Shown piece by piece: positions 19,999 through 38,304 of a stretch of 64,000 bases of DNA. The translations under genes were made by a program, and so were the position numbers. Position 1 is the stretch's first letter, and each line of letters opens with the position of its first letter. The notes beneath the pieces were generated by a model. It was not told the origin of the DNA and ran no database searches. It saw nothing but the letters and a program-made list of their open reading frames with translations. The DNA comes from Roseibium sp. TrichSKD4 (GTDB taxonomy: Bacteria; Pseudomonadota; Alphaproteobacteria; Rhizobiales; Stappiaceae). Location: contig NZ_GL476304.1 in the NCBI RefSeq assembly GCF_000148725.1, forward strand, positions 92,476 to 156,475, read 5' to 3'.

Positions 19999-20955
19999 TT
20001 ACTGGCTCAGCGGCATCACAGTTCGTTCAATGTCCGGGTAAAGGTGCGCAACTGAGCGGTAAAACTCCTGAGGCATGGATCCCATTCCGGAAAACTCTTC
20101 TGGAATGGGAAGGTCCATGATCTCGACCATATCCAGACCCTCGCCGGCTGATCGCTTCAGGGTTGCTTCCAGCCAATCCAGATAAGCGCGTGTTTGGGTC
20201 AAGGAAGTGCCTGTACGATCAATCGGACCATGTCCTGGAATGATGGACGATGATTGTTGTTGGCTCATATCAGTCAACGCGTCGCGCCACATGGCCAAAT
20301 CGGCATGGGGTGTTGTCGGGGCGCGGTCTAGAAAGGCCAGATCTCCTGCGATCAGGGTTCCGGTTTTCTCATCCAGAATTGCCAGGTCAGCGCCAGTGTG
20401 TCCTGCCAGCGGCAGTGTCTTGAGTTTTCGACCGCCGATTGTCAAAAAGCTGCTTGTGATGTCTTTGTTTGGCGGAAGCGGTTCGGTTCCACGCATCCAG
20501 TCGCCAAGCAGCCGATACATGTTGTCAGCGAAGCCATCACCCTCTGAGGCGGCAAGCGCTCGAGTTTCAGGCAGGGCATAAATTAGGTTGTCCGCAAAAA
20601 CCTGATTGCCCAAAAAATGATCCGGGTGGTGGTGGGTGATCATGACCCCGGCTGCGCCGCGACCATTCAGTCCCCGAGCGACATCAAGCAGAGCTTCGCC
20701 ATATTTTTTTGAGGGGCCGCTGTCCACGATCAAAATGCCGATGTCGGTATCTATCAGCGCACAATTGACGATTGCGCCGCCATTCTCGCGAGAGAAATAG
20801 TCTCTGGACCCCTCAATCATCCAGATGCCGTCAGCAACAGAGAAGGGTTTCAGTTCATAGCTTGTTGGGTTTGCAAATACAGTACGTGGGGCAAGTCCAG
20901 ATGCCGCTGTTCCGACTGCCGCACCAAGCACCGCACGTCTGGTGATATGTGTCAT
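19999..20955 (-). CDS. Quinoprotein relay system zinc metallo-hydrolase (MBL fold, Tat signal)
   Basis: 318 residues with a twin-arginine signal (THITRRAVLGAAVG) and a metallo-beta-lactamase fold: metal motif ITHHHPDHFLG at about 118, further ligand His in LAGHTGADLAI, Asp in AGDLAFLDRAP and His in IIPGHGPID. It matches the SoxH-related hydrolases that accompany PQQ-dependent dehydrogenases; their reaction is not established. Its start overlaps the end of the SoxYZ-like gene by 4 bp, and it is the last gene of a four-gene minus-strand operon (cytochrome c, XoxJ-like, SoxYZ-like, hydrolase). It is probably periplasmic. Confidence 0.85.
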   Translation of the reverse strand: MTHITRRAVLGAAVGTAASGLAPRTVFANPTSYELKPFSVADGIWMIEGSRDYFSRENGGAIVNCALIDTDIGILIVDSGPSKKYGEALLDVARGLNGRGAAGVMITHHHPDHFLGNQVFADNLIYALPETRALAASEGDGFADNMYRLLGDWMRGTEPLPPNKDITSSFLTIGGRKLKTLPLAGHTGADLAILDEKTGTLIAGDLAFLDRAPTTPHADLAMWRDALTDMSQQQSSSIIPGHGPIDRTGTSLTQTRAYLDWLEATLKRSAGEGLDMVEIMDLPIPEEFSGMGSMPQEFYRSVAHLYPDIERTVMPLSQ

Positions 20956-21740
20956 TGGCTGGCCGCCGCACGAATGATGGCGTCAATTTCGTTGCCGTTG
21001 TTGTCCCGGCCGGTGACTGATATTTCGGTGCCAAGCGTAGCCTTGTCGAAATATAGCGTGAAGGCCGGGTCTTCGTTGACGGGTTCATAAAGCCGCAAAC
21101 GGGCAAGGGGAGACTTTGCGCCAGGGGTGGAAACAGTGAGATCCTCGATGATGAAGATCGGTATTCCATCTGCCAAGCCTGTATCCATCGGGTGGTCGAC
21201 AATCATGCGCAAACGTCCGTTCTCGGGCCAGACTTGACCATGAACCTTGCCGAGATGTTCTTCCCAATCATCTGCAGCATAGGCAACGGCTGGGGCCGTG
21301 CATCCGCCCCCCGCTGCATCTATCACCGTTGAACCGACGTGCCACATGCCATCGGAAGTTTGAACGGCGGCCCGCACCGGCGTTGCCTGATCAATCTTGA
21401 AGCGGAAGGATATCTTTGGCTCCGATTGTTCAGGCCAATAGGTCAGGATTTTCGGGATCGGTCCGTAGTCGACCAGAAAAACCATCTGTGTCACATCTTC
21501 GAGAGCAGTGGCATCGACCAGCACGGGCACGTTGAAGCTGTCTTCAGCCACAGCCGGTGCTTTCACCACCACGCGATCATCGAACCGGATTTTTGCAGGA
21601 TCACCAAGAATGTTGATCTGATGATAGGACCACATTCCGGATTTTAGCGGGTCATCCAACGGTACTTTCGGATCGTCCAGAGCCACGGCTTGCGTGGCAA
21701 GAAAAGCTGATAAAAAACCGACAGTTAACCGCATGATCAT
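20952..21740 (-). CDS. Quinoprotein dehydrogenase-associated SoxYZ-like carrier
   Basis: 262 residues. A signal peptide (MRLTVGFLSAFLATQAVA) is followed by a SoxY-like part, including a Gly/Cys segment (VIDAAGGGCTAPAVAYA) resembling the flexible carrier arm of SoxY, and a SoxZ-like C-terminal part (VDHPMDTGLADGIPIFIIEDL). Fused SoxYZ-like proteins of this type occur next to PQQ-dependent alcohol dehydrogenases; what they carry is unknown. ATG 21740 directly follows the stop of the upstream gene; an ATG two codons later is equally possible. The frame is open 39 codons further upstream, but that part overlaps the previous gene and lacks a signal peptide. Confidence 0.83.
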   Translation of the reverse strand: MIMRLTVGFLSAFLATQAVALDDPKVPLDDPLKSGMWSYHQINILGDPAKIRFDDRVVVKAPAVAEDSFNVPVLVDATALEDVTQMVFLVDYGPIPKILTYWPEQSEPKISFRFKIDQATPVRAAVQTSDGMWHVGSTVIDAAGGGCTAPAVAYAADDWEEHLGKVHGQVWPENGRLRMIVDHPMDTGLADGIPIFIIEDLTVSTPGAKSPLARLRLYEPVNEDPAFTLYFDKATLGTEISVTGRDNNGNEIDAIIRAAASQ

Positions 21741-21742
21741 GC

Positions 21743-22669
21743 CTACCAATCTGGCTTTGTATATGTCAGGCCGTGGGCCTTGAAGATTGCTTCCATCCGT
21801 CCGTCCTGAACGGCATAGCGAATGGCATCGTCTACGCTGTAGGAAAGCGGTCTCCAATTGTGCCGAACGGCCAACCCAAGTGTCCAGCTCGATTTCGCCA
21901 ATCCGGGAAACGGCGGGGTGTGAACCGCAGTCTCTTCACCCAAACTATGCTCCAACTGTGAAAGAGGCCCCATCACCGCCATAACCTCCCCAGCAGCCAG
22001 AGCGCTCATCGCCTCTTCATGGGTTTTGAAACGATGGATGTTTTTGAGCATTTGACCACCAGCGAAATTGCTCAAATAGAAGTCCGCCAATGTGTCATTT
22101 TCCACGCCAACAGTATCAAAGCGGAAATAGGCCGCGACCGGCGGGTCTTCAGGATAGTCTTTCGGTCGATAGGCGATGGCCATTTGCTCGTTGTAATACT
22201 GGCCATTCAGGACAACCTGTTCATTGCGACACCCCAGTTCCCGGTCATAGGGAATGTGCAACATCACATTGGCGATCTGGCCGCCAATCAACTTGCCGCG
22301 CCACACATTGTTTCTCAGATCTCCGTCGACATTCTCGTCAGCGGCGGTCGGAATAAAACGGGCCTCGACCCCCAAGTCCTCGGCGATGAGCCGACCGACA
22401 TCAATGTCAACGCCCTTGAGAACGCCCTTCTCTCGATAGGAGAAGGGCGGGAAGTCTTCATAGACTGCTATCTTGATAAATCCGCGATCCAGAATATCGT
22501 CGAGGCTCCGCCCGACAATGTCGCGCCCGACATTTTGAGGTTTCCGGTCTGCATTGAGACCGGATTTAATGCTCTCACAGTTTTGAGCCCAAGTTGCCGT
22601 GTCTTCGAAGGCACCGATGGCCATGAGAAGACAAATAACAACTGCAAACGCTTGTGAGACCCTACGCAT
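21743..22669 (-). CDS. xoxJ: XoxJ/MoxJ-like periplasmic binding protein
   Basis: 308-residue secreted protein of the extracellular solute-binding (family 3-like) fold associated with PQQ dehydrogenases. It has an N-terminal signal (AFAVVICLLMAIGAFEDTATWA), then IKIAVYEDFPPFSYREKG and LKGVDIDVGRLIAEDLGVEARFIP, the characteristic start of this fold. In MxaJ/XoxJ proteins it is thought to help mature or activate the dehydrogenase rather than feed a transporter. Its ATG shares one base with the stop codon of the cytochrome gene (TAATG), so translation is coupled. It should act on XoxF, whose gene lies 9 kb downstream on the other strand. Confidence 0.85.
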   Translation of the reverse strand: MRRVSQAFAVVICLLMAIGAFEDTATWAQNCESIKSGLNADRKPQNVGRDIVGRSLDDILDRGFIKIAVYEDFPPFSYREKGVLKGVDIDVGRLIAEDLGVEARFIPTAADENVDGDLRNNVWRGKLIGGQIANVMLHIPYDRELGCRNEQVVLNGQYYNEQMAIAYRPKDYPEDPPVAAYFRFDTVGVENDTLADFYLSNFAGGQMLKNIHRFKTHEEAMSALAAGEVMAVMGPLSQLEHSLGEETAVHTPPFPGLAKSSWTLGLAVRHNWRPLSYSVDDAIRYAVQDGRMEAIFKAHGLTYTKPDW

Positions 22670-23394
22670 TATTCGGCCGCCGAAAGTCCGATTGTCAACA
22701 CATCGATTGCCTTCTTGAGACTACCATCAGCCCCATCAAGCACAGCAACTGCACGAGATGCGACGGAGTCCGCCCTAGGAGCGCCCGATCCCGTCTCAAC
22801 TGCATCTGCTATTGCGGTCATTTCAGTCCGCAAGGCAGCTACTTCTGCCTCTGCATCGCTAGCTGACGTACCAGCTGTGCTGAGTGCGGTTATTTGATCG
22901 CGAATTTCCTTCAAACGATCAGCTTTTTCGTCCAGCGCGCCGTCATCCGGGCGGGTTTCAATATAGGTTCGGATGGCCCAGGCAGCCTCTTGTCCAAGCA
23001 GTTCGCCAAAGGCTGGCATCTTGGTGATGCCGTTCTGGGTGTAGCCGTTTTGATACCGTTCCAGATACCACTCGTCGCCGTAGTCATCGGCTTCCAGATA
23101 TCTCAGGTCCGGGGCAAGGCCACCAGAAATGGCTTCCAGTCCGTGACACCGTGCGCAGTTCTGATTGTAACCGGATGCACCGACCTCAACGGCAGTTGAC
23201 CAGAATTCATTCTCCGGGTCACGCCACGGATTTTCAGCCAGCCATTCGTCACCGAGTTCCGGCAAACCAGCCGTATCAACGGCCTGTGGCGCTACATCTC
23301 CATGTGCTCTAACAGTCTCTGTCTGTGTGAAGACCAAAAATGACGCAGCGGCGGATGCCACAAGTGTGCACAGCACAGCATTGCGTGAAAGCAT
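22669..23394 (-). CDS. pedF: PedF-like cytochrome c-550 with helical C-terminal extension
   Basis: 241-residue secreted c-type cytochrome, the likely electron acceptor of the quinoprotein dehydrogenase. A signal peptide is followed by AHGDVAPQAVDTAGLPELG and the single haem site NQNCARCHGLEAISGG, with a Met ligand candidate in TKMPAFGELLG. This part matches PedF-type c-550. After about residue 145 comes an unusual extension of about 95 residues rich in Ala/Glu/Asp, predicted helical (LKEIRDQITALSTAG, AEVAALRTEMTAIADAV). ATG 23394 is chosen because of a strong GGAGGAGAG site before it; the frame is open 17 codons further. It is the first gene of the minus-strand operon. Confidence 0.85.
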   Translation of the reverse strand: MLSRNAVLCTLVASAAASFLVFTQTETVRAHGDVAPQAVDTAGLPELGDEWLAENPWRDPENEFWSTAVEVGASGYNQNCARCHGLEAISGGLAPDLRYLEADDYGDEWYLERYQNGYTQNGITKMPAFGELLGQEAAWAIRTYIETRPDDGALDEKADRLKEIRDQITALSTAGTSASDAEAEVAALRTEMTAIADAVETGSGAPRADSVASRAVAVLDGADGSLKKAIDVLTIGLSAAE

Positions 23395-23570
23395 TGATAC
23401 TCTCCTCCCGAGTTCTCGTTTGAAAATAATCGGAAGAATTCGCACTATGCTATTGTACCAAGGGACAAAGGCAGGCGCATTGCGTAACGAAAGGAGGCGT
23501 GGTTACAGTCAAACCCGTAAATACAACAAGATGTTGCGATGTCTGATCCGCCTTGGGAGGGGTGAAATTC
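23395..23570. promoter_or_regulatory. Divergent promoter region between the cytochrome and ABC operons
   Basis: The 176-bp gap between two divergently transcribed PQQ-associated operons must contain both promoters. Strong ribosome binding sites flank it on both sides (GGAGGAGAG on the minus strand, GGGAGGGG at about 23555 on the plus strand). No clear operator dyad was recognised. Confidence 0.5.
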
Positions 23571-24743
23571 ATGCGCAAGTCATTGCCCTTTTTGTTAATG
23601 GTAGCAATGTTGACAACGCTTGGGACGGCCAGTGCCGAGGTGAAGACAACAATTGGCTATCTCGAAAAACATGTCCCGCCGCCACCAGTGCTATCCAACC
23701 TCGATCCCATTCCGGAGGATGATGGCTTGGCTGGGGCTAAGGTCGGCCTTGCCGACAATGCGACAACAGGCCGTTTCCTAAAGCAAACCTATGACCTGAC
23801 GGTTCAGGTGTCCGACAATACGGACGCGTTTTTAAATGCCGCGCGCGACATGCTGCAGCACACCCCGTACATCGTGGTCAACGCCCCGATGGACGACCTT
23901 CTAAAACTCGCAGACCTGCCAGAGGCAAAAGACGCGCTGTTGTTCAACGTTGGCAGTGCAGACAATCGCTTGCGGGACGAGGCGTGCCGGGCAAACCTTT
24001 TGCACACTCTGCCTTCGAGAAGCATGCTAACGGATGCGTTGGCGCAGTTTTCGGTCAAAAAGAAATGGATCGTCTGGGTGTTGCTGACTGGCGGGCATCC
24101 CGGTGACCTTGCCTATGCCCTGTCGCTCGAAAACTCCGCGCGCAAATTCGGCATCAGGATATTGGCGAAAAAGATCTGGGAGTTTGATGCAGACATGCGC
24201 CGCAATGCGGCGCAGGAAGTCCCGCTTTTTACGCAAAATTTCGGTGACCACCATTTGGTGGTGATCGCGGATGAGCCTGGCGATTTTGGACGGTATGTCG
24301 CGTACAACACATGGCTGCCGCGTCCCGTTGCTGGAACCGAAGGACTGGTTCCTTCAGCCTGGGATCGAACGGTCGAGCAATGGGGGGCAGCGCAACTGCA
24401 AAGCCGGTTTAGTGAAGCTTCAGAACGGGACATGAGGCCGAAAGATTTTGCTGCATGGGCGGCTGTCCGGGCCATTGGAGAAGCTGTCACACGGACCAAC
24501 ACATCAGATGTGAAAATCGTGCGCGATTATATGTTCTCCGAAAAGTTCGAGCTTGCCGGTTTCAAAGGGCGCCCTTTGACCTTCCGGAGCTGGAACGGGC
24601 AGCTGCGCCAACCAATTCCAATCACCCATCCACGCGCTTTGGTCGCCATGGCACCAATGGAGGGTTTTTTGCACGAACGTAACGAAATGGATTCTCTGGG
24701 AATCGATCAGCCAGAATCCAAATGCACAGCCTTTGAAGGGTAA
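23571..24743 (+). CDS. PQQ-dehydrogenase-associated ABC transporter substrate-binding protein (LutA-like)
   Basis: 390-residue periplasmic protein with a signal peptide (KSLPFLLMVAMLTTLGTASA), related to the leucine-type binding fold and to the family annotated as the substrate-binding protein of the PQQ-dependent alcohol dehydrogenase ABC system. Characteristic segments are YLEKHVPPPPVLSNLDPIPEDDGL, NATTGRFL and AFAAWAAVRAIGEA-like C-terminal helices (here DFAAWAAVRAIGEAV). In Methylorubrum this family is LutA of the lanthanide uptake cluster. First gene of an operon with the beta-propeller, ATPase and permease genes. ATG 23571 is preceded by GGGAGGGG; the open frame begins six codons earlier. 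Substrate in this organism is inferred only. Confidence 0.83.
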   Translation: MRKSLPFLLMVAMLTTLGTASAEVKTTIGYLEKHVPPPPVLSNLDPIPEDDGLAGAKVGLADNATTGRFLKQTYDLTVQVSDNTDAFLNAARDMLQHTPYIVVNAPMDDLLKLADLPEAKDALLFNVGSADNRLRDEACRANLLHTLPSRSMLTDALAQFSVKKKWIVWVLLTGGHPGDLAYALSLENSARKFGIRILAKKIWEFDADMRRNAAQEVPLFTQNFGDHHLVVIADEPGDFGRYVAYNTWLPRPVAGTEGLVPSAWDRTVEQWGAAQLQSRFSEASERDMRPKDFAAWAAVRAIGEAVTRTNTSDVKIVRDYMFSEKFELAGFKGRPLTFRSWNGQLRQPIPITHPRALVAMAPMEGFLHERNEMDSLGIDQPESKCTAFEG

Positions 24744-24747
24744 ACTT

Positions 24748-25719
24748 ATGCGTACATCTTTGCTTTTGGCTGCAGCCATATCTGCAGTAACCCTTTCGTC
24801 CGCCTCTGCAGATGAGATCTGGGTGTCAAACGAAAAGGACGACACGGTCAGCGTCATCGATATCGAGACGATGGAAGTTACCCGCACGATTGAGGTGGGG
24901 GAGCGCCCACGGGGGATCACATTCGCAATTGATCACTCCGTTCTGTATGTGTGCGCATCGGACAGTGACACGGTTCAGGTGATCGATCCGGATACCGGGA
25001 AAATTCTGAATGAATTGCCGTCTGGCGAAGACCCTGAGCAATTCGTCCTGCACCCCGACAACCGCCATCTTTACATCGCCAATGAGGACGACGCGATCAC
25101 CACCGTGGTGGATACCCAAACTCGCAAGGTGGTCGCCCAGATTGACGTCGGGATTGAGCCGGAAGGTATGGCTGTCTCGCCCGATGGCAAGATCGCCATC
25201 ACAACGTCTGAAACGACAAACATGGCGCATTGGATCGATACATCCACGCAGCAGCTATTTGCCAACACGCTTGTTGATCAAAGGCCCCGCCACGCCGAAT
25301 TCACGCATGATGGCTCTGAGCTATGGGTGAGTTCGGAAATCGGCGGAACGATCACAATTTTTGATGTGGCAACGCAAAGCGAGAAGGCAAAACTGACCTT
25401 CGAAATCCAGGGTGTTCATCAGGATCGCGTGCAGCCGGTTGGATTTGAAATGACCCGCAACGGGAAATATGTGTTTGTCGCTCTCGGTCCTTCAAACCAT
25501 GTTGCTGTGGTGGACCAGAAGACCTTTGAAGTCCTTGACTATATTTTGGTTGGACGGCGTGTCTGGCACATGGCGTTTAATGGAGACGAGAGCCTGCTTT
25601 TCACCACGAATGGTGTTTCTGGCGACGTGACGGTGATCGATGTTGAAGAACTTGCTGCCGTCAAATCCATCAAGGTCGGGCGCTTTCCTTGGGGTGCAGC
25701 ATACCGACCAACAAACTAA
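24748..25719 (+). CDS. PQQ-catabolism-associated YVTN beta-propeller protein
   Basis: 323-residue secreted protein built almost entirely of about seven beta-propeller blades with YVTN-like repeats (IWVSNEKDDTVSVIDIETMEV, LYVCASDSDTVQVIDPDTGK-type units). The signal peptide is RTSLLLAAAISAVTLSSASA. Propeller proteins of this family sit between the binding protein and ATPase genes in PQQ-dehydrogenase-linked ABC clusters, including the lut genes; the role is unknown, perhaps substrate or metal handling in the periplasm. ATG 24748 has a GAAGGG site seven bases upstream; an in-frame TTG at 24733 is not supported. It begins 5 bp after the binding-protein gene. Confidence 0.86.
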   Translation: MRTSLLLAAAISAVTLSSASADEIWVSNEKDDTVSVIDIETMEVTRTIEVGERPRGITFAIDHSVLYVCASDSDTVQVIDPDTGKILNELPSGEDPEQFVLHPDNRHLYIANEDDAITTVVDTQTRKVVAQIDVGIEPEGMAVSPDGKIAITTSETTNMAHWIDTSTQQLFANTLVDQRPRHAEFTHDGSELWVSSEIGGTITIFDVATQSEKAKLTFEIQGVHQDRVQPVGFEMTRNGKYVFVALGPSNHVAVVDQKTFEVLDYILVGRRVWHMAFNGDESLLFTTNGVSGDVTVIDVEELAAVKSIKVGRFPWGAAYRPTN

Positions 25720-25775: not shown

Positions 25776-26507
25776 GTGAATGCTGGTATCAAGGTCTCAC
25801 ATATCGTTCATGGCTACGGCAAAAAGACTGCTTTGAACGATGTCAGTTTCGAGGTTGAAAGCGGGGCTTTTTGCGCTTTGCTTGGGCCGAACGGGGCTGG
25901 CAAATCTACCTTGTTCGCATTGCTGACGCGTCTCTTTATTCCACAATCTGGTGACGTGGACATTGCGGGCATCCAGCTTAAAAACAATCCTCGGCAAGCG
26001 CTTGCAAAGTTGGGTGTCGTGTTCCAACAGCCAACTTTTGACATGGACCTGACAGTCCGGCGAAATCTGAAGTATTTTGCCGCGCTTCACGGGATTTCCG
26101 GGCGCGATGCCAACAAGAGAATTGACGCCGCCCTTGAGCGTCTCGGAATGGCAGAGCGTGCGGGTGAAAAAGCCAAGGCGCTCAACGGCGGGCATCGCCG
26201 GCGGATGGAAATCGCTCGATCCTTGCTGCACGAGCCATCTGTGCTCTTGCTTGATGAACCAACGGTCGGACTTGACGCGGCAACTCGAAAGTCCATCACC
26301 GATCATGTGCATGATCTGGTGCAGGATACCGGCCTCACCGTTTTATGGGCGACGCACCTCGTCGACGAAATCAGGTCAGAAGATCGGTTGGTGGTCCTGC
26401 ATCGCGGTGAAATAGTTGCAGATGGAATTGCAGGAAAAATCGCAGGCGATCAAACGTTAGGCGATAGATTTCTTGCATTGACCTCAAGCAGTGAGGCAGC
26501 TGCATGA
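25776..26507 (+). CDS. PQQ-dehydrogenase-associated ABC transporter ATPase (LutE-like)
   Basis: 243-residue cytoplasmic ATPase. Walker A is GPNGAGKSTLFALL (about 38-51), Q-loop VVFQQPTFDMDLTV, signature LNGGHRRRMEIARSLL (LNGGH rather than LSGGQ) and Walker B VLLLDEPTVGLD, with the H-loop His in WATHLVDE. The start is GTG 25776 behind a GAGGGGG run. The stop overlaps the ATG of the permease gene by 4 bp, so the two form a transporter of the ABC-2 (drug/polysaccharide exporter-like) architecture, which makes the direction of transport an open question for this family. Confidence 0.88.
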   Translation: MNAGIKVSHIVHGYGKKTALNDVSFEVESGAFCALLGPNGAGKSTLFALLTRLFIPQSGDVDIAGIQLKNNPRQALAKLGVVFQQPTFDMDLTVRRNLKYFAALHGISGRDANKRIDAALERLGMAERAGEKAKALNGGHRRRMEIARSLLHEPSVLLLDEPTVGLDAATRKSITDHVHDLVQDTGLTVLWATHLVDEIRSEDRLVVLHRGEIVADGIAGKIAGDQTLGDRFLALTSSSEAAA

Positions 26508-27298
26508 GTGGCGCATTGATTTGTCTTCTTGCGGTAATCCAGCGCGAAGCTTTGCGCTTTGTGTCCCACCGCAGCCGATTTCTGGCGGCTCTCGTGCGCC
26601 CGCTTGTCTGGCTCATCGTTTTTGCTGCAGGGTTGCGGGCTGCGCTCGGCCTGTCGATCATGCCGCCTTACCAAACGTACATCACGTATGAAGTTTATAT
26701 CGTGCCCGGCTTATGTGGCATGGTGCAGCTGTTTTCAGGCATGCAGTCTTCTCTCAGTCTTGTCTATGACCGGGAGATGGGATCGATGCGTTTGATGCTC
26801 ACCAGTCCCATGCCGCGTTGGTGGTTGTTGTTCTCCAAACTGGTCGCAAGCACGCTGATTTCCATCATTCAAGTCTATGCGTTTTTGGCAATTGCCGGAC
26901 TTGTCGTTGGCATCGATTTTCCGTGGGAAGGGTACTTGCTGGCCTTTCCAGCGCTGCTCATCAGCGGGTTGATGCTGGGCGCTTTGGGTCTTCTCTTGTC
27001 TTCCACCATCAAGGAGCTTGAGAACTTTGCTGGCGTCATGAATTTCGTGATCTTTCCAATGTTCTTCATGTCCACCGCGCTTTACCCGCTTTGGAAAATG
27101 GCGGAAGCGTCTGTCCTGCTGCGTGATATTTGTGCCTTCAATCCGTTTTCGCATGCTGTTGAACTCATTCGTTTCGCTCTTTACGGCCAACTTAATTTTG
27201 AAGCTCTGGGTTGGGTAAACTTAGCGTTTCTGGTCTTTTTAGCTGGCAGTTTGTGGGGCTATGACCCCGCACGTGGTATGATCCGCAAGAAGGCATGA
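26504..27298 (+). CDS. PQQ-dehydrogenase-associated ABC-2 type permease (PedC/LutF-like)
   Basis: 264-residue integral membrane protein with about six hydrophobic helices and the ABC-2 permease layout (SRFLAALVRPLVWLIVFAAG at the N-terminus, GLCGMVQLFSGMQSSLSLVYDREMG, MPRWWLLFSKLVAS). It matches the permease family linked to PQQ-dependent alcohol oxidation. The gene overlaps the ATPase gene by 4 bp. Together with the ATPase, the binding protein and the propeller it completes a four-gene unit; a TonB-dependent receptor, usual for lanthanide uptake, is not present in this window. Confidence 0.87.
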   Translation: MSGALICLLAVIQREALRFVSHRSRFLAALVRPLVWLIVFAAGLRAALGLSIMPPYQTYITYEVYIVPGLCGMVQLFSGMQSSLSLVYDREMGSMRLMLTSPMPRWWLLFSKLVASTLISIIQVYAFLAIAGLVVGIDFPWEGYLLAFPALLISGLMLGALGLLLSSTIKELENFAGVMNFVIFPMFFMSTALYPLWKMAEASVLLRDICAFNPFSHAVELIRFALYGQLNFEALGWVNLAFLVFLAGSLWGYDPARGMIRKKA

Positions 27299-28426: not shown

Positions 28427-28433
28427 GGCCAAT

Positions 28434-29021
28434 TTATGCGAGAGTAGCTGGAGAGCCCCTGAGATGCTGGATGCGCGTTGCGAGCATGCTTGCTTCCTCT
28501 TGTGAGTGAGTAACGAACAAGCTGGCAATCTTCCGTTTGTTCAAGAGCTTCTGGGTGAGTTCCATCATTTCTTCGATCCGTTCTGCATCGAGCGAAACAA
28601 ACGGCTCGTCCATTATTAGGAAGTCCGGGTCGGTCACAAAAGCACGCGCCAGTGATAGTCTTCGGCGTTGGCCGAGGGACAATTGCAGCGGATAAAGCGC
28701 CTCTTTTCCTGCAAGACCGACTTCACTCAGGGCATTGCGGGCTTTGTCCGTTGAAATCCCGGTGACAAGCGTGAGGTTCTGTAAAACAGTTCGCCAATTC
28801 AGGAGAGTGGGTTCCTGAAACACCATGGCTATGCGGTTGGGCTTTGTCAGGTGGCCGGCGAAATCGGAATCAAGCCCGGACATGATGCGCAGGAGTGTTG
28901 TTTTGCCAATGCCCGAAGGGCCAAGCAGCGCAACGCATTCTCCCGCACTGACAGACAATTTGATCTCGCCCAGAATCTGCACTGAACCAAAGGACTTGGA
29001 CTTGAGATCAACGGAAATCAT
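28434..29021 (-). CDS. ABC transporter ATPase, nitrate/sulfonate/taurine type
   Basis: 195-residue ATPase of a three-gene importer. Walker A is GPSGIGKTTLLRIM, Q-loop MVFQEPTLLNWRTV (the TLLNWRTV pattern is typical of SsuB/TauB-type subunits), signature LSLGQRRRLSLARAF, Walker B FLIMDEPFVSLD, H-loop FVTHSQEEA. It is on the short side for the family (usually 230-260). ATG 29021 overlaps the permease stop by 4 bp; the frame remains open 11 codons upstream. The operon runs binding protein, permease, ATPase on the minus strand. Confidence 0.87.
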   Translation of the reverse strand: MISVDLKSKSFGSVQILGEIKLSVSAGECVALLGPSGIGKTTLLRIMSGLDSDFAGHLTKPNRIAMVFQEPTLLNWRTVLQNLTLVTGISTDKARNALSEVGLAGKEALYPLQLSLGQRRRLSLARAFVTDPDFLIMDEPFVSLDAERIEEMMELTQKLLNKRKIASLFVTHSQEEASMLATRIQHLRGSPATLA

Positions 29022-29779: not shown

Positions 29780-30734
29780 ACAGGCCCTCCGGAAGGGTGG
29801 TTACGGAGCCGAGCAGCTTTTCACTGCCAAGCCGGGCCATCAGTTCCAGCATTTTGGCTGCCTGCTCTTCATTGACGGGACCTTCAGAAGGAATGCCTGC
29901 GATAAATCCATCCTTCAGTGCCTGAAACTGATTGTCGGATTTGGCCCGCATAAGCGGACGCACACGCTCGAATGCAGCAGGGTCACTCTTCAAAAGACCC
30001 TTCGCCGAGCGGGACGCGCGCATGAGACCCTGCACCAGTTCCGGATTATTCTCTGCAAGCTCTCCGTGGATCACATAGCCAAGAAGCGGTGTTTCAGGAT
30101 CCAGCCCAAGCGCATTGGCAGCATCTGATACAGAAATCAGTTCGCGCATTCCTGCTGATTTCATCTTCGCAAGGAAATGCCAAAAATTGATTGCTCCAGC
30201 GGTTTCTCCTGACAGCCCGCCCTTAAAGATCAGCGGCGGGGCGCCAAAGACCTGCTCGGTTTCTGCGGCCAGATCCATGCCATATTCTTGTTCGGCATAG
30301 GCGCGCAGGATCAGCCAGCTTTTATCAACCGGGCCTCCGGCAATACCGATTTTTTGCCCCTTCAGGTCTTGCAGTGTTTCCGCATTGCTTGTTTTCGGGA
30401 CAACAAGGCCACCCACGGCCTTGGAATAAGGAATAAAGCGGTAGTCCTTGCCTTCAGCCCGTTGGCGCACAACCCAGAGCCAGTCAGCGACCACAATATC
30501 TGCTTCACCGCCCTGAAATGCGATTCTTGTGGCTGGGTTGCCAGCCATCCCCGTTACTTCAAGCTGGAAGCCATTTTCGGTATCGAGACCATAATGCTTG
30601 ATCGTATCAAGCTCCCAGTTCACGGTTCCGATCTTCAAAACGGCGGCCTTGAGGACCGGCTGGTCTGCCTGAACCAATCCGGCTGACAACGCGAGCCCTA
30701 TAGCGGCAAGCGCGAGTTTCCGTAACGCAAGCAT
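29760..30734 (-). CDS. ABC transporter substrate-binding protein, NMT1/SsuA-like
   Basis: 324-residue secreted binding protein: signal peptide (RKLALAAIGLALSAGLVQA), then the NMT1/taurine-type fold with KIGTVNWELDTIKHYGLD, GMAGNPATRIAFQGGEADIVVADWLWV and LKGQKIGIAGGPVDKSWLILRAYA. The combination ADIVVADWLWVVRQRAEG is not the usual nitrate or taurine signature and suggests a distinct ligand. The gene is divergent from the CXXCW-family gene and embedded in the PQQ cluster, so a ligand related to alcohol oxidation or its cofactors is possible, but this is inference. First gene of a three-gene operon. Confidence 0.86.
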   Translation of the reverse strand: MLALRKLALAAIGLALSAGLVQADQPVLKAAVLKIGTVNWELDTIKHYGLDTENGFQLEVTGMAGNPATRIAFQGGEADIVVADWLWVVRQRAEGKDYRFIPYSKAVGGLVVPKTSNAETLQDLKGQKIGIAGGPVDKSWLILRAYAEQEYGMDLAAETEQVFGAPPLIFKGGLSGETAGAINFWHFLAKMKSAGMRELISVSDAANALGLDPETPLLGYVIHGELAENNPELVQGLMRASRSAKGLLKSDPAAFERVRPLMRAKSDNQFQALKDGFIAGIPSEGPVNEEQAAKMLELMARLGSEKLLGSVTTLPEGLFVAPQS

Positions 30735-30826: not shown

Positions 30827-31426
30827 TTGATTTGGTTGAACCGAGTTTTGTCTGTGGTGGTCTTGTTTAGCCTTTGGGGGGCGCATGAACCTGCGCTGGC
30901 AGAATCCTACCGTTCTGTTCAGGAGCGAAGACCGGATCTTTTTCATCCTGAAACCGGTTTTCGCATATCAAGGCATCGGGCACCGACACCGGAAGATATT
31001 CCAGGCAATGTTGTTCCGGTGTCCACGGAAAGGGCGGCCAATCTCATCGGGAAAGGGGCGTTGCCGATTGATGTGTCTGGTGCGCTGATCTCCAGGTATG
31101 ACGAGCTTGAAGGAACATGGTTGGTGCAAGGTCCGCGAGACAGTTTGCCGGGTGCCGTTTGGTTGCCGGAAGTGGGGCGCGGCGTTTTGGATGAAGAGAT
31201 GGATCGCTACCTTGCATCCAATGTCACTCAATTAACAAACGGAAACAAAGATCATCCGGTTCTGGTCTTTTGCATGGCCGACTGCTGGATGAGCTGGAAC
31301 GCGGCCCAGCGCATAGAATCTCTCGGATATACAACTGTTTATTGGTTTCCTGAAGGTGTTGACGGCTGGCGTGATTCCAAGCGAGAATTTGAAAAGGTTT
31401 TGCCCGTCTCGCTAGTAGTTGAATAA
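30827..31426 (+). CDS. PQQ-dependent catabolism-associated CXXCW-family protein (rhodanese-like)
   Basis: 199 residues with a signal peptide (VLSVVVLFSLWGAHEPALA) and a rhodanese-like fold. The motif VFCMADCWMSWNAAQRI near residue 150 carries Cys-x3-Cys-Trp in the active-loop position and identifies the PQQ-associated CXXCW family. The start is a TTG at 30827 with GGGGAG nine bases upstream. The gene lies 163 bp before xoxF on the same strand and is probably periplasmic, perhaps acting in disulfide or sulfur chemistry needed by the dehydrogenase, whose active site carries a vicinal disulfide; that role is inference. Confidence 0.84.
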   Translation: MIWLNRVLSVVVLFSLWGAHEPALAESYRSVQERRPDLFHPETGFRISRHRAPTPEDIPGNVVPVSTERAANLIGKGALPIDVSGALISRYDELEGTWLVQGPRDSLPGAVWLPEVGRGVLDEEMDRYLASNVTQLTNGNKDHPVLVFCMADCWMSWNAAQRIESLGYTTVYWFPEGVDGWRDSKREFEKVLPVSLVVE

Positions 31427-31589: not shown

Positions 31590-31864
31590 ATGAAGAAATA
31601 TTTGGCTGTCGCCGCAGTCGGACTGTTGGCGACAACGGGCGCGCAAGCAGCCGGGGTGACCGAAGAGGACCTCGCCAACGACGCGGCCACAACGGGCGAT
31701 GTGCTGACAAATGGCATGGGTCGCCATCAGCAACGTTACTCCCCATTGAAAATCATCAACAAAGACAACGTGAAAAATGTTGTCCCGGCTTGGGCCTTTT
31801 CATTTGGTGGTGAAAAACAGCGTGGTCAGGAAAGCCAGCCTCTTATCCATGATGGCATTATGTA
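31590..31864 (+). pseudogene. xoxF: Lanthanide-type methanol dehydrogenase XoxF, 5' part, split by IS5-type element
   Basis: First 91 codons of xoxF: signal peptide (KKYLAVAAVGLLATTGAQA) and the start of the mature quinoprotein, including RYSPLKIINKDNVKNVVPAWAF and HDGIM. ATG 31590 has a GGGAGGA site six bases upstream. The frame meets a stop (TAG, 31863-31865) at the junction with the inserted element. The rest of the gene continues at 33346. Removing the element and one copy of the 6-bp duplication restores ...[13 protein letters not shown]... in frame, giving a 588-residue protein, the normal size. As it stands the gene cannot make active enzyme. Confidence 0.93.
31859..31864 (+). repeat. 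Target-site duplication TATGTA, left copy
   Basis: TATGTA immediately before the left terminal repeat of the IS5-type element; the identical 6-mer follows the right terminal repeat at 33346-33351. It marks the insertion point in xoxF. Confidence 0.85.
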
Positions 31865-33345
31865 GTCCGCCCTGAACAACGTCTAAGCCATTGATGTTGC
31901 GCGTGGCCGAAGCAATACGCAAATATTCGATTTGACCGGTTTGGGGATGGGGTTTGTGATCCAGAGCAGCAAAATGATCAGTGCATTGAGGATCAGACGC
32001 AGGTTATGACCGGCTGCGGCCAGCAGGGCGTTGATGGCATCGCCATTTTTGCCATTGAGGAAGTTCCGGTCAAGTCGTCCATCTGTTTTCATGTGGCCGA
32101 TGGTGGCCTCGATCGCTGATCGTCGTTTCAGCTCACGCTTCATCTGTGCCGTCAGCCCGCGCTTCTGGCCGGAGATCATGACCTTGGCGTCGCCCTCATA
32201 ATCATGCCCCCGATAGCCACGGTCCACATAGACACGCTCAGCTTTGGTGCCGCAGACTTTCTCAGCCTGACTGATGGTGTCATTCAAGGTGTGCCCATCA
32301 TAGGGATTGCCCTCAAAAGCCCTCGCCGCAAGAACCAATCCTTCCCGATTGGTCGTGGCAATGCCAACCTTGGCCCCGAACTCGTAAGGTGTTCGCGCCT
32401 TGCCCTTGGCAATACAGGCCACTTCCGGCGCATGCATGGAATAAATCTTGTTTTTGTCCTTGGGGGTCTGGGCCAGAAGCCGCTCCACCAGTCCCAGCAG
32501 ACGGGAGAACCGGTGCTCAAGACCTTCGTTGCCTGCGATCTTGCGGGAGATGTCGCGATAGACCCGGCCCAGATAGGTCTTCAGCTTTTTGAGTTCCCGG
32601 CGCATCCGCTTGAACTGTTTGGCATGGGCATAACGGCCCGCCATCAAGGCCGCCTTTTTGGCAACTCTGGTATGGCTGCGACGCAAGATGATGCCGGCCC
32701 TCTTGGCCTGGCGCACCAGAAGCTGCAAGGCCTTGTGATAAAGACGGCTATCGGTGGGATGGGCAATGGCTTTGGGTTGAACGGTCGTATCAACCAAGAC
32801 CCGCTCAAGGCTGCTCTTCTTGATCGTCCCGCTCTCAATCGCAACACCTACCGTAGCAGAAAGAAGCTTTTCCATTCCCTCAGGACCAATCCGTTTGCGC
32901 CAGCGGGTCATGGTTGAGGGATCAATGGGGAATTGGTGCTGGAAAAACTCAAAACCGCAGAAAGACTGCCAGTAGGGGTTTTCAACCCAACGCTCAACCG
33001 TCTCTTCATCGGAAAGATCGTACATGTGCTTGAGAAAGTGCAGCCCGGCCATCAGACGCGTTGGTTTGGCCGGTCGTCCCAAGGGGCGATAATGCCTGCC
33101 GAACTCCGCATCAAATTCATCCCAAGGCATCAGACCAGACAGCCGCACCAACGAATGGTTCATATCGATGATTGCGGCCAGGCGTTCCTTGAACAGATCG
33201 CCACACCGTTTGTTGCGTTTTGAAGGTCTCATGAGAATATGCCAGAAAATGCGTGCTTCGGATCAACTAACCGGCATATTCACACATCCAAAACCCAATG
33301 GGTATCCATACTCTTCAATCAGTTAAGGGGTTTTTCAGCGCGAAC
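31865..33345 (-). mobile_element. IS5-family-like insertion sequence inside xoxF
   Basis: A 1481-bp element. The left end (from 31865) and the reverse complement of the right end (to 33345) match at 13 of the first 16 bases (GTYCGCSCTGAAMAAC). It is flanked by a perfect 6-bp direct repeat TATGTA. It encodes a single intact minus-strand transposase. The exactness of the duplication and the in-frame repair of xoxF on removal argue for a recent insertion. Confidence 0.92.
31883..33232 (-). CDS. IS5 family transposase
   Basis: 449-residue DDE transposase. The N-terminal DUF772-type domain is clear ([20 protein letters not shown], then [32 protein letters not shown]). Catalytic residues: Asp in [20 protein letters not shown] (about 145), Asp in [12 protein letters not shown] (about 345) and Glu in [21 protein letters not shown] (about 387). 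No frameshift is seen. A 237-residue opposite-strand frame at 32204-32917 is a shadow. Confidence 0.92.
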
Positions 33346-33351
33346 TATGTA
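33346..33351 (+). repeat. Target-site duplication TATGTA, right copy
   Basis: Second copy of the 6-bp duplication that flanks the IS5-type element in xoxF; identical to 31859-31864 and directly next to the right terminal repeat. Confidence 0.85.
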
Positions 33352-34843
33352 TGTCACAGGCTCGTACTCACGTATGTATGCCATTGACGTGCGGACCGGA
33401 GAGGAAATCTGGCAGTATGATGCCCGTTTGCCGGAAGGCATTCTGCCGTGCTGTGATGTGATCAACCGTGGTGCAGCAATTTACGGAGATAAAGTCTACT
33501 TCGGTACGCTGGACGCCAGAATCGTCGCACTCGATGCAAAAACAGGCGATGTAGTTTGGCGCAAGAAGATCGCGGACTATAAAGCGGGATACTCCTATAC
33601 AGCTGCTCCGGTCATCGTGAATGGCCTCGTGGTAACAGGCAATTCCGGCGGCGAATTCGGGATTGTCGGTGAGGTTCAGGCCCGCGATGCCGAAACCGGT
33701 GAACTCGTCTGGACCCGCCCTGTAATTGAAGGTCACATGGGCACGCTGAACGGCGAAGAAAGTACCATGACCGGGACGCTGAATGCGACCTGGCCGGGTG
33801 ACCTTTGGAAAACAGGTGGCGGTGCGACTTGGCTCGGCGGCACATACGACAAGGACACAGACACGCTTGTCTTTGGTGCAGGTAACCCGGCACCGTGGAA
33901 CAGCTGGTTGCGTGCAGCCGGCAATCCGGAAGGTACAGAAGGCGACAACCTTTACGCCGCATCTCGGATTGGCATCGATCCGTCGAACGGTGAAATCAAG
34001 TGGCATTACCAGACCACACCTCGCGAAGGGTGGGACTTTGACGGTGTGAACGAGGTCGTTCCCTTCGTCGATGCCGATGGTAACAAGCGCTATGCAACAG
34101 CAGACCGCAACGGCTTCTTCTACGTGCTTAACCGTGAAGACGGTAATTTCGTCAATGCTTGGCCATTCGTAAGCGATATCTCATGGGCCGAGGGCATTGA
34201 CGAAAATGGCCGCCCGATCTTCATCGAAGAAAACCGCCCAGGCGACCCAAGCAAGGCTGTTGAAGGCAAGAAAGGTGAAGTTGTCTTCGCAATTCCGTCC
34301 TTTCTTGGCGGCAAGAACTGGATGCCAATGGCGCACAGCCCGGACACGGGTCTGTTCTACGTGCCTTCCAATGAGTGGGGGATGGACATCTGGAATGAGC
34401 CGGTCACCTACAAAAAGGGTGCTGCATATCTCGGTTCGGGTTTCACCATCAAGCCGATCTTTGAAGACCACATTGGATCTTTGAAAGCTATCGATCCGAA
34501 CACGGGTGAAGTTAAGTGGGAGTACAAAAACAACGCTCCGCTTTGGGCTGGTGTGATGACGACTGCTGGCGGGCTGGTCTTTACCGGGACACCAGAGGGT
34601 CACCTGAAAGCGTTCGACGCTGATACGGGTGAAGAACTCTGGAAGTTCCTGACTGGGTCCGGCATTGTTGGCCAACCAATCACCTGGGAAATGGATGGGG
34701 AGCAGTATATTGCTGTTGCATCCGGCTGGGGCGGTGCGGTTCCGCTGTGGGGCGGCGAAGTTGCCAAGAAGGTCAACTACCTGAATCAGGGTGGTTCAAT
34801 CTGGGTCTTCAAACTGCCAAAGCAGCTGGCCTCGGCCAACTGA
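33346..34843 (+). pseudogene. xoxF: Lanthanide-type methanol dehydrogenase XoxF, 3' part
   Basis: The remaining 85 percent of xoxF, starting within the TATGTA duplication. It contains the quinoprotein propeller repeats, the vicinal disulfide segment [12 protein letters not shown] above PQQ, and [11 protein letters not shown]: the Asp-x-Asp pair there is the hallmark of lanthanide-dependent enzymes (Ca-type MxaF has Ala at the second position). The C-terminus [11 protein letters not shown] and SIWVFKLP is intact. An open frame runs back into the element to 33239, but those residues are transposon-derived. Without signal peptide and first strands this part cannot give a functional periplasmic enzyme. 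A terminator hairpin follows the stop. Confidence 0.93.
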
Positions 34844-34856: not shown

Positions 34857-34886
34857 CCACCGGCCAACATTTCGGCCGGTGGTTTC
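34857..34886 (+). terminator. Rho-independent terminator of xoxF
   Basis: Perfect 9-bp stem CCACCGGCC (34857-34865) / GGCCGGTGG (34874-34882) with an 8-nt loop and a short TTT, 14 bp after the xoxF stop codon. Confidence 0.72.
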
Positions 34887-34957: not shown

Positions 34958-35668
34958 ATGTTCGCTGAGACCACCGTGATGGCTAAGTTCCTGATTATAG
35001 ACGATCATCCGCTGTTTCGTGAGGCGTTGCACAGCGCTGTAGAACTGGCTTATCCCGACTCGAACACTCAAGACGCTGCATCACTGGATGAGGCCTGCGG
35101 GTATCTCGCCAAAGACAGTGGTTATGATCTGGCGCTTTTGGACCTTTCAATTCCCGGTGTTCGGGGCATGGAGGGCCTTTTGCATTTGAGAACACACTTT
35201 CCGCGGCTGCCTGTTGTGGTTGTTTCAGGCAATGACGATCCGCGCATTGTCTCTCAGGTCTTGGCCTATGGCGCGGCTGGATTTGTGCCCAAGTCTTCAA
35301 AAAAAGCGGCTCTTGCAGATGCAATTCAGCATGTCATGAGCGGGGCAGTCTATGTTCCCGAAGATATGGATGATGCCCAAACTGCCTTGGATGACAAGAC
35401 GCAGGAAATGATCCAGCGGGTCGCGAGTCTGACACCTCAGCAGATGAAAGTGTTGAAGATGATTTGTGACGGCCTTCTCAACAAACAGATTGCGTTTGAA
35501 CTGAGTGTTGGAGAAACCACCGTGAAGGCCCATGTGTCGGAAATTCTGCGCAAACTCAATGTGTTCAGCCGGACGCAGGCCGTCATTGAAATCAGCAAAT
35601 TGGAAGCCCTTGGGGCTATCGAACCGGTGTTAGGTGAGGCGCCGGATGACGCGCCCAAGGCTAACTAG
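34958..35668 (+). CDS. LuxR-family (NarL-type) response regulator
   Basis: 236-residue DNA-binding regulator. The receiver domain (FLIIDDHPLFREALH; phospho-acceptor Asp in LALLDLSIPG; Lys in FVPKSSKK) is followed by a C-terminal LuxR helix-turn-helix (LTPQQMKVLKMICDGLLNKQIA, ETTVKAHVSEILRKLNV). ATG 34958 has GAAGG nine bases upstream; ATG 34979 (MAKFLIIDD) is an alternative. Its 3' end overlaps that of the convergent hybrid kinase gene by 8 bp. Position beside xoxF and the kinase suggests that it controls the PQQ-linked cluster, like the AgmR/ErbR regulators of ethanol oxidation; this is inference from context. Confidence 0.87.
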   Translation: MFAETTVMAKFLIIDDHPLFREALHSAVELAYPDSNTQDAASLDEACGYLAKDSGYDLALLDLSIPGVRGMEGLLHLRTHFPRLPVVVVSGNDDPRIVSQVLAYGAAGFVPKSSKKAALADAIQHVMSGAVYVPEDMDDAQTALDDKTQEMIQRVASLTPQQMKVLKMICDGLLNKQIAFELSVGETTVKAHVSEILRKLNVFSRTQAVIEISKLEALGAIEPVLGEAPDDAPKAN

Positions 35669-37022
35669 TTTTGTTTTGAATCAGGTGGTTCATCAAGGCC
35701 CGCAGCTGTGCTGGCTTGACCGGTTTCGGCATATACTCAACGCCTAGCTCGTCGACGCGAGCCTGAACACGCTTGGACGTATCTGCCGTTGCCAAAATGG
35801 CTGGAACAGGCCTTGGCAAATAGTTTCTCAGATCGGCAAGTGTTTCCGTTCCCAAATCACCATCGTCCAGATGGTGGTCTGCAATAATCAGGTCTGGGCA
35901 CCAGTTTGTATCTGAAAGCGCCTGTAAAGCGGTTTGCTTGCTCGGTGCAATTCGGGCATCCACTTCCCAGTTCCCCATAAGCAAGGCCATCGCATCAATC
36001 ACAGCCGGATCGTTTTCGATCACAAGCACCTTTTTCCCCGAGAGAGATCCATCCCTCAGCATAGGCGTTGGTCGGCGTTTGGTTTGGCGTTGAGTGGGGC
36101 TGGGGGCAAATTCTGCGATTGGTACCTGAATGCGAAAGGCGCTGCCTCGTCCTGGAACCGAGGTGAGCGAAAGGGTGTGATCGAGAGTGTCAACAAGGCG
36201 GCGGACAATCGAAAGCCCCAAGCCCAAGGCGCATTCCTGAGTGCTAGCGGTCGCTTTCCCGTGGCTGCCCCGGTGAAACTCTTCGAAGATGGTTTCGAGC
36301 TGGTCCTCAGGAATGCCGCATCCGGTATCTACCACTTCTAGGGCGAGGTCTTTTCCAACCTTTCGCGTTCCAATCAACACTCCGCCTTCATCAGTGTAGC
36401 GAATGGCATTGGAGATGAGGTTCTGCAGCGCGCGCCGGAGCATGGACCGGTCAGTGTAAATGTAGCTGTCCGAGATGGCAGTCCGCAGTTTGAGGCCCTT
36501 GCGTTCGGCAATTGGACGCAGATCAGACAACACGCTTTCAATCAACTGCGCCAAAGACACAGAGGCAAAGTTGGGTTTGGTCACGCCCGCATCCAGCCGC
36601 GAAATATCCAGCAAGGTGCGCAGCAACTCATTCATGGTGTCGAGTGAGCGTTCAACTTGCTCGACCATGGAACGGGCTGCATCGCTTTCCTGAAGGTCGT
36701 AAAGCGACGAAATGGTGAGCTGAGCCGCATTCAAGGGCTGGAGAATGTCGTGGCTCGCAGCGGCAAGAAAGCGGGTTTTGGATTGGTTGGCGCGCTCGGA
36801 TATTTCTTTTTGCCGTGCCAACTCGCTGTTTGCTTCTTCAAGCGAATGCAGCGTGGTGGTCAGCTCATCGGTTCTGCGCCGAACCTGTCCTTCAAGCGAT
36901 ATAGCCGTTTGGAACAGGGAGAAGGCATTGCGTTGCTGGTCAATGGCAAGCTCCACCCGATTGACCAAGGCATCATTGATCCGTTTCAGGCGATCAACAT
37001 CGTCAACTTCAGCCAGACTCAT
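35661..37022 (-). CDS. Hybrid histidine kinase/response regulator (NahK/ErcS' type)
   Basis: 453-residue soluble kinase with no membrane segment: N-terminal coiled coil (about 10-75), HisKA with His91 in AASHDILQPLNAAQ, HATPase domain (NLISNAIRYTDEGG, DTGCGIPEDQ, ALGLGLSIVRR), and a C-terminal receiver (KVLVIENDPAV, DLIIADHHLDDGD, KPVKPAQL). The S-H-D-I-L-Q-P-L-N pattern is typical of the NahK/ErcS' group. I start at ATG 37022 (MSLAEVDDVD), which overlaps the FIST gene end by 14 bp; the frame opens 12 codons earlier. It is probably co-transcribed with, and signalled by, the FIST protein. Confidence 0.87.
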   Translation of the reverse strand: MSLAEVDDVDRLKRINDALVNRVELAIDQQRNAFSLFQTAISLEGQVRRRTDELTTTLHSLEEANSELARQKEISERANQSKTRFLAAASHDILQPLNAAQLTISSLYDLQESDAARSMVEQVERSLDTMNELLRTLLDISRLDAGVTKPNFASVSLAQLIESVLSDLRPIAERKGLKLRTAISDSYIYTDRSMLRRALQNLISNAIRYTDEGGVLIGTRKVGKDLALEVVDTGCGIPEDQLETIFEEFHRGSHGKATASTQECALGLGLSIVRRLVDTLDHTLSLTSVPGRGSAFRIQVPIAEFAPSPTQRQTKRRPTPMLRDGSLSGKKVLVIENDPAVIDAMALLMGNWEVDARIAPSKQTALQALSDTNWCPDLIIADHHLDDGDLGTETLADLRNYLPRPVPAILATADTSKRVQARVDELGVEYMPKPVKPAQLRALMNHLIQNKTS

Positions 37023-38217
37023 GAGGCCCTCCGGCGTCGTCTGCAACTCCAAACGCAATGCCAGTGAAGGTCTGGTTCAGGTGCATGGAGTGATACTGTT
37101 CGCCATAGGTGTTGAAACCAATGACGTTGTTTTCCCTGTAAAGGCTCTGAATGCGTTGGGTGGCCTGCCTGTTTTGCGCGTCAATGCGCCGAAGCACGCA
37201 ATCGAAGCCGAGAATGAAATCAATGTCGCCAAGATCATTGCGAACGGTGTCAAAGGCAGCACGTGTCGTGGCGGTCATTCCTTCCGGCTCCGCCACAGTA
37301 AGAACGATGCCGTCATCAATGGCGCAGAAGAAAGACAGAGAGCCGTCGGCGTTCACTTTTTGCACGGAGCGGCAGTAATATTCCCCTCCAACCCGCACCA
37401 CCAGTGGATGGGACGCGAAGCTCATGGGTGACAATTCGCCGGGCGGCATGCCGATCACACGGGCATATTCGCTCGCCGCTTCAGCGGCATTGAACTCATA
37501 GATGATCCGCTTCTCAGGATCTGATCGCGTGACGACAAGCTTTCGGTCCGTTGGCACGAAATTGTCGGTTTTAAAAATGCGGAACGGAACGCTGGTCCGC
37601 CCCATAATCACGATTGCACAGTCGCTGCTGATATCCCCATTGAGAATCAATGAGGTTTCAGAAAACCGCATATCGTCTCCAGCAGATCCACCGAGCAACG
37701 GTACATCATCAAGAGCCCAGTGAAGCGCGGCTGTCACCGTCTCCTCGGCCACTGATAGCCCGTCGATCAAACTAATCGCGAAGACATTTGAAGTGGGGGA
37801 CACGCGATTGTCCTCGTCAATGTCGTCTTCAGCGAGAAAACGCTTCTTCTCTTCGGTTACCCGGCTCACAATTCGGTCAAAACCGATATTCTTCAGGTCC
37901 TGAATCCGAACCGCCGAGAAAGAGAAATCACCTTTCGGAAAGAGAATCGCAATAAGGCCACCAAAGGTTACTTCAGCGCCGCCGATTTCACCTGCGGTGG
38001 AGCACGCTGCATAGTTCAACGACGGTGCGGCATTGGCCATCCCATCGCGAATGTTTTGTGGAGTAAAATGGGTTTGAGAGAAAAAAACGAGAGCATAGCC
38101 ATATCGATCGGACGCATAAGCAGCCGATAAATCGGTCCAGAATTTTGCATCGTCCAGCCGGTCGGTGGCCAAGGAAAGCACACCGCACCCAAACCGCATG
38201 CCGCCAATAGGCTGCAT
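37009..38217 (-). CDS. FIST-domain sensory protein
   Basis: 402-residue cytoplasmic protein with an N-terminal FIST domain (about 10-230; LPFLGGSAGD-like segment DVPLLGGSAGDDMRF, ALVFFSQTHFT) and a C-terminal FIST_C domain (about 235-375; AASEYARVIGM, FASHPLVVRVGGEYYCRSV). FIST domains are thought to bind small ligands such as amino acids. ATG 38217 follows GGGAGG; the frame is open 29 codons further up without similarity. Downstream is the hybrid kinase, with which it overlaps, matching the FIST-kinase pairs that regulate PQQ alcohol oxidation in pseudomonads. Divergent from the cox operon. Confidence 0.86.
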   Translation of the reverse strand: MQPIGGMRFGCGVLSLATDRLDDAKFWTDLSAAYASDRYGYALVFFSQTHFTPQNIRDGMANAAPSLNYAACSTAGEIGGAEVTFGGLIAILFPKGDFSFSAVRIQDLKNIGFDRIVSRVTEEKKRFLAEDDIDEDNRVSPTSNVFAISLIDGLSVAEETVTAALHWALDDVPLLGGSAGDDMRFSETSLILNGDISSDCAIVIMGRTSVPFRIFKTDNFVPTDRKLVVTRSDPEKRIIYEFNAAEAASEYARVIGMPPGELSPMSFASHPLVVRVGGEYYCRSVQKVNADGSLSFFCAIDDGIVLTVAEPEGMTATTRAAFDTVRNDLGDIDFILGFDCVLRRIDAQNRQATQRIQSLYRENNVIGFNTYGEQYHSMHLNQTFTGIAFGVADDAGGPHESG

Positions 38218-38304
38218 TTTTTCCTCCCAAAACGCAGGCCGCTGCTTATGTCGCAGTTTGCCGCGCCTCTCTAATTTTGTAACCTGAGGCCGAAAAAAAT
38301 GCAA

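Follow-up and report, generated by a model that had tools for sequence, protein, structure and literature searches.

An IS5-family insertion in a probable PedH/ExaF-type lanthanide-dependent alcohol dehydrogenase gene of Roseibium sp. TrichSKD4

Within a stretch of 64,000 nucleotides from Roseibium sp. TrichSKD4 (assembly GCF_000148725.1, contig NZ_GL476304.1, positions 92,476 to 156,475 of the forward strand), here called the window and used for all coordinates, the gene of a pyrroloquinoline quinone (PQQ)-dependent dehydrogenase is split by an insertion sequence (IS) of the IS5 family. The locus raises the question of which enzyme has been struck, and how recently. An earlier note, made from the letters of this DNA, had named the gene xoxF. 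We are confident that the element instead knocks out a lanthanide-dependent alcohol dehydrogenase of the PedH/ExaF type, of the ethanol class, and that the event is recent. We propose that the element transposed into codon 92 of this gene and duplicated the target TATGTA. The stop codon created at the junction would end translation after 91 residues, and the N-terminus, which resembles a signal peptide, would be parted from the catalytic beta-propeller, so that the full-length periplasmic enzyme could not be made. The surrounding ped-type genes (for PedF, PedABC, a CXXCW protein and regulators) have open frames.

The element and its insertion site

The dehydrogenase frame begins with the ATG at 31590 and continues for 91 whole codons to a stop codon formed at the left junction (31863-31865). 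The N-terminus of this 5' part (31590..31864, plus strand) looks like a signal peptide by eye, and its 91 residues are 84.6% identical to those of G057, the closest relative compared and one of the 45 genomes in the Labrenzia sp. DG1229 genus set. The element follows over 1,481 bp (31865..33345), and two identical copies of TATGTA, the left at 31859..31864 and the right at 33346..33351, flank it directly as a 6-bp target duplication. Its terminal inverted repeats (31865-31880 and 33330-33345; GTCCGCCCTGAACAAC and GTTCGCGCTGAAAAAC) agree at 13 of 16 positions, as counted by eye. The 3' part of the gene occupies 33347..34843 on the plus strand, and the in-silico removal of the element together with one TATGTA restores 1,767 nt encoding 588 amino acids and a stop codon, with no internal stop. 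The split by an IS5-type element with a perfect 6-bp duplication, as first described, is thereby confirmed in its coordinates, its ends, its TATGTA pair and its restored frame; the 589 in-frame codons counted at that time include the stop.

On the minus strand of the element, a stop-free frame of 449 residues (31883..33232) encodes a transposase that matches NF033578 with 567 bits (cut-off 275), as well as the Pfam domains DDE_Tnp_1 and DUF772 (PF01609, PF05598). Both marks of the IS5 family were found, namely a DDE transposase of that family and terminal inverted repeats with a short target duplication. The element is present once within the window. Among the best 25 of 441 plasmid records, the closest relatives lie in Mesorhizobium and Sinorhizobium, their transposases are 72-75% identical over residues 1-409, and those that are annotated carry the label IS5 family or ISRm12-like. 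Among the best 25 of 241 records matched at the DNA level, the identity is about 70-73% and the outer 120-160 bp of the element have no match; the best place reaches 80-90% in three of the 241, all outside these 25.

Five related elements were compared end to end with that of the window. They measure 1,484-1,485 bp, within 4 bp of its length, and their inverted ends are closely similar. In three of them a perfect direct repeat of 6 bp (TAAGAA, AAATTA and TAAATA) abuts the ends exactly, and the other two have none, which makes four of six such elements when the window's own is included. Classical IS5 subgroups have other target-duplication lengths. Since three of the five relatives carry it exactly at their ends, a 6-bp duplication appears to be usual for this kind of element. 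Chance is not a serious alternative as the source of the element and its repeats, because the five relatives share similar inverted ends and three have the perfect duplication at the same position. The ISRm12-like elements of Sinorhizobium and Mesorhizobium plasmids are thus comparable to that of the window in ends, length and, for three of five, 6-bp duplication, but differ from it in DNA sequence and in the unmatched outer parts. The transposase itself aligns end to end with five relatives of 450 residues, and departs from them at 55 of the 328 columns where those five agree.

No near-identical copy of the element was found in 87 genomes of the family to which the bacterial relatives belong, with four first-look candidates scored per genome; partial or diverged matches occur in five of the 87. 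A transposase search in nine other genomes gave none, but nothing at all matched there, and the result carries little weight. With a 4-kb query against plasmids, nine records match over 35-37% of the query at about 75-77% identity; no plasmid source record was found with this query, the only one used. No literature on ISRm12 was found.

Empty site in relatives and age of the insertion

In G057, 40 kb align in order with 4410-47445 of the window, some stretches being unmatched (e.g. 10116-12648 and 27895-28445), and the 3' part of the dehydrogenase is 82% identical in DNA and 93% in protein. There, the two flanks of the insertion meet with a 5-bp overlap (positions 5626-5630 of the G057 stretch), which represents the empty site; in DG1229 the flanks are likewise joined, without the element. 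The dehydrogenase gene is found in 12 of the 45 genomes of the genus set, at 86-93% identity, and is free of stops in all 12. In a wider sample, 100 of 100 loci are uninterrupted (91 genomes after the removal of duplicates), although this sample, drawn from the best 80 of 591, is biased towards intact genes, since an interrupted one would score poorly in such a ranking; the count of 12 out of 12 is the fairer one. Not more than 10 kb from the dehydrogenase, the same 12 genomes carry a gene that resembles PedA2 (77-88% identity). For the other 33, a PedA2-like relative at 52-56% was recovered in nine and none in 24 (E 1e-40). Two of the 12 PedA2 matches, in G057 and G071, list one internal stop; in G057, no stop interrupts the frame between query residues 5 and 328.

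The insertion is read as recent on the evolutionary scale because the split gene shows no decay; the sequence data fit recency and give no date. Of the 250 columns that do not vary among the other 91 aligned rows, none is changed in the window, a property shared by 67 of the 92 rows, the window included, at their own otherwise-invariant columns. Where uniformity is 95% or more (333 columns), the window has one difference, against a median of two. Relative-rate counts for the window and G057 over six outgroups are balanced (19/18, 19/21, 18/18, 20/16, 13/13 and 16/16; chi2 at most 0.44). For the 3' part compared with G057, the ratio of nonsynonymous to synonymous substitution rates (dN/dS) is 0.023, with a dS of 1.69 that is near saturation, and ranks second lowest among the 14 of 17 genes with a computable ratio. 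The recency claimed in the earlier note is therefore supported by the unchanged columns, the balanced rates and the low dN/dS; its companion claim, that the insertion is reversible, over-reads these data. Precise excision of an IS via a 6-bp repeat is rare.

Among the other explanations, the one that survives best confines the insertion to a fraction of the culture that was sequenced; it might, for instance, have arisen while the cells grew without lanthanides or alcohols. The absence of any trace of decay and the open frames of the ped-type neighbours speak in its favour, but a fixed and recent insertion would look alike. We consider it unlikely, and it would in any case be compatible with a recent knockout. 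Far more doubtful is a selected or switch-like loss, favoured where lanthanides are scarce or alcohols absent and accompanied by revertants in the same population, the ped cluster continuing to sense and handle alcohol without its catalytic subunit.

Identity of the interrupted gene and fate of its product

The 3' part belongs to the PQQ methanol/ethanol dehydrogenase family TIGR03075, and its highest scores against solved structures are to P. putida PedH (6zcw 733 bits, 6zcv 725 bits), followed by ExaA (1flg, 630 bits). Two quinohemoprotein alcohol dehydrogenases score 328 and 308 bits, and the methanol dehydrogenases 4mae and 7o6z, which we take to be XoxF, score 303 and 301 bits. Structures named XoxF come lower still (6dam 289 bits, 6oc5 279 bits). 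ExaF of M. extorquens AM1 is, like PedH, a lanthanide-dependent PQQ ethanol dehydrogenase of PQQ-ADH type 2b. The gene is closer to PedH than to the calcium-type ExaA not only in bit score but also in identity, with 63.9% over 485 positions against 58.2%. The Asp-x-Asp motif that the earlier note had pointed out in GWDFDGVNE is present, and the lanthanide-type active site it implied is supported by the alignment, in which all four metal ligands of PedH (E, N, D, D) are conserved. According to PMC11845868, 6ZCW is PedH of P. putida and these ligands are Glu199, Asn281, Asp323 and Asp325. Both ligand Asp residues occur in 92 of 92 aligned rows; the fourth ligand site is Ser in ExaA and in a paralog of genome G067. 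In place of GWD, five paralogs show EWD, AWD or TWD.

The same motif and the same family are common to XoxF, which is likewise a PQQ beta-propeller enzyme with a lanthanide Asp-x-Asp, and could suggest that the split gene is xoxF and that the strain has lost lanthanide-dependent methanol oxidation. However, the XoxF structures reach 279-289 bits where PedH reaches 733, and the identity to an XoxF-type paralog of G057 is 38.6% over 557 positions. The reverse control is clear: this paralog scores 1,083 bits to XoxF 6oc5 and 368 to PedH 6zcv. The neighbours are ped genes. As to a context of xoxG/xoxJ and formaldehyde-oxidation genes, cytochrome and binding-protein genes are present, the cytochrome matching PedF, and no formaldehyde-oxidation gene was recognised among those neighbours that were scanned, a part of the window's genes. 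In PMC5487730, PedH has an activity of 0.80 U/mg with methanol against 11.0 U/mg with ethanol, about 14-fold less; ExaF, for its part, can sustain growth on methanol when MxaFI or XoxF is absent (PMC11845868). On the scores and identities above we rejected xoxF, which we judge very improbable. Of the earlier proposal that the insertion abolishes XoxF, the interruption of a full-length enzyme stands and the identity of that enzyme does not.

Paralogs at 38-40% identity to the dehydrogenase occur in 13 of the 45 genomes, four of which (G057, G071, G073 and G079) also have the PedH-type gene; of these 13 paralogs, one was scored against structures and two more were placed beside it in the tree. 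The G067 paralog gives 984 bits to ExaA, and a paralog of G044 finds its best match, at 805 bits, in a quinohemoprotein alcohol dehydrogenase. The separate XoxF-type locus of G057 (C95, 626-13699) contains open reading frames that resemble, by eye, formaldehyde-oxidation, cytochrome and beta-propeller genes. A relative can therefore carry both types of lanthanide alcohol dehydrogenase.

Several points weigh against the recent knockout of a PedH/ExaF-type enzyme. In an unrooted tree of 17 rows without ExaF, PedH falls outside the alphaproteobacterial group to which the window belongs, and towards ExaA, XoxF and the other paralogs (support 0.947). Expression of a frame that starts within the element is conceivable, and a promoter-like match (33066-33093, 9 of 12) lies upstream of it, within the element and on the same strand. 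The insertion is moreover seen in the contig of a single strain, which leaves room for an assembly error or a subpopulation.

The first point bears on the name. Because PedH falls outside the alphaproteobacterial group, we prefer 'PedH/ExaF-type', a designation based on the Asp-x-Asp ligand, the identity, the bit scores and the cluster, to 'PedH orthologue'. The gene shares with PedH of P. putida KT2440 (6zcw/6zcv) the four metal ligands and a ped-type neighbourhood, and differs from it in being interrupted and in belonging to a separate group; ExaF was not part of the comparison.

The second point corresponds to a shortened enzyme that would still be made from a 534-codon frame (33239..34843, plus strand), which starts in the element and is open in frame into the dehydrogenase. 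An open frame does not in itself imply a product, and the promoter-like match upstream is one of four such sites in the region, near the chance number (2.3 expected). The frame lacks the first 91 residues and has no apparent signal peptide, as judged by eye, yet PQQ enzymes of this class act in the periplasm; a functional short form is accordingly hard to credit. As for the third point, an artefact of the assembly, or a repeat copy joined in the wrong place, is the least probable of all, since a mis-join is not expected to create a target duplication, the element has a perfect 6-bp duplication on either side, like three of the five related elements, and the window holds a single copy.

With the knockout of the PedH/ExaF-type enzyme retained, the loss of its activity would be expected to touch the use of ethanol and of further alcohols, short-chain or aromatic, more than that of methanol. 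As G057 has an XoxF-type gene elsewhere, which scores 1,083 bits to 6oc5, the oxidation of methanol may be left intact. Just 3' of the dehydrogenase stop, a strong hairpin (34857..34882, fold z = -3.62) may mark a transcription end. It was scored by the terminator scan on the minus strand only, and terminator-like sites number three against 4.4 in shuffles; the insertion may or may not have a polar effect on the regulator gene.

The ped-type cluster around the gene

The neighbouring genes were assigned by NCBIfam profile matches and compared with the ped cluster of P. putida KT2440 (PP_2663-PP_2679) as set out in Table 1 of PMC12997753. Above their curated cut-offs on the minus strand are a quinoprotein relay zinc metallohydrolase (PP_2678-like; 19999..20955, TIGR04558), a quinoprotein-associated SoxYZ-like carrier (PP_2677-like; 20952..21857, TIGR04557) and the cytochrome c550 PedF (22669..23445, TIGR04494). 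Between the last two lies a periplasmic solute-binding protein (21743..22669, minus strand), PedG-like by position and with a weak match to TIGR01096 (45 bits, cut-off 256). The plus strand then encodes, again above curated cut-offs, a PQQ alcohol dehydrogenase-associated substrate-binding protein of an ATP-binding cassette (ABC) transporter (PedA1-like, PQQ_ABC_bind; 23553..24743, TIGR03863), a PQQ-associated beta-propeller protein (PedA2-like; 24733..25719, TIGR03866), an ABC ATPase (PedB-like, PQQ_ABC_ATP; 25776..26507, TIGR03864), the ABC permease PedC (26504..27298, TIGR03861) and a PQQ-associated CXXCW rhodanese-like protein (PP_2666-like; 30827..31426, TIGR03865).

Beyond the dehydrogenase, three further assignments fall below their curated cut-offs: a LuxR-type response regulator (34958..35668, plus strand), AgmR/PedR1-like by position and with ErdR as best model (NF041830, 210 bits, cut-off 390); a hybrid histidine kinase of the NahK/ErcS'/PedS1 kind (35661..37058, minus strand; NF041832, 397.6 bits, cut-off 400); and a FIST-domain NosP-like protein (37009..38304, minus strand; NF041558, 378 bits, cut-off 450). 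In terms of that Table 1, the window and the P. putida cluster share counterparts of NosP, PedS1, AgmR, the rhodanese, PedC, PedB, PedA2, PedA1, PedF, PedG, the SoxYZ-like and SoxH-like proteins and PedH, while the window has an additional SsuABC-like ABC transporter. PedE, PedS2/PedR2, PedD and PedI were not recognised among the scanned frames of the window, none of which lies in 1-15432 or 51857-64000.

This additional transporter, of SsuABC/NMT1 type (ATPase, permease and binding protein, 28434-30734), has counterparts in G057 and aligned DNA in DG1229. A frame of 187 residues after pedC (27335-27898) has a G057 counterpart at 76% amino acid identity and no Pfam or NCBIfam match, and for the DNA of the methyltransferase-like gene that follows it (27908-28426) the G057 stretch offers no match. 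The region 15433-19247, upstream of the ped genes, encodes a histidine-kinase-like protein and then a DUF3369-GGDEF-EAL protein. Directly beyond the cluster, 38419-43085 holds CoxG, CoxS, CoxL and CoxM-like genes of a carbon monoxide dehydrogenase-type molybdenum hydroxylase, in a region collinear with G057; in the large subunit the sequence is AYRGAGR, presumably the form II signature.

Among the papers listed, judged by title and abstract opening, none was recognised that describes an IS naturally inserted into xoxF or pedH; most subscription journals lay outside this search. The disruption of a member of a known gene family by an IS is in itself an ordinary event. Should the strain be available, the locus would nevertheless be of use, since a single lanthanide enzyme is here cleanly interrupted by nature in an otherwise open ped-type cluster. 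At the level of the family, Asp-x-Asp marks the use of a lanthanide and not that of methanol, and a xoxF label on such genes would wrongly predict a loss of methylotrophy.

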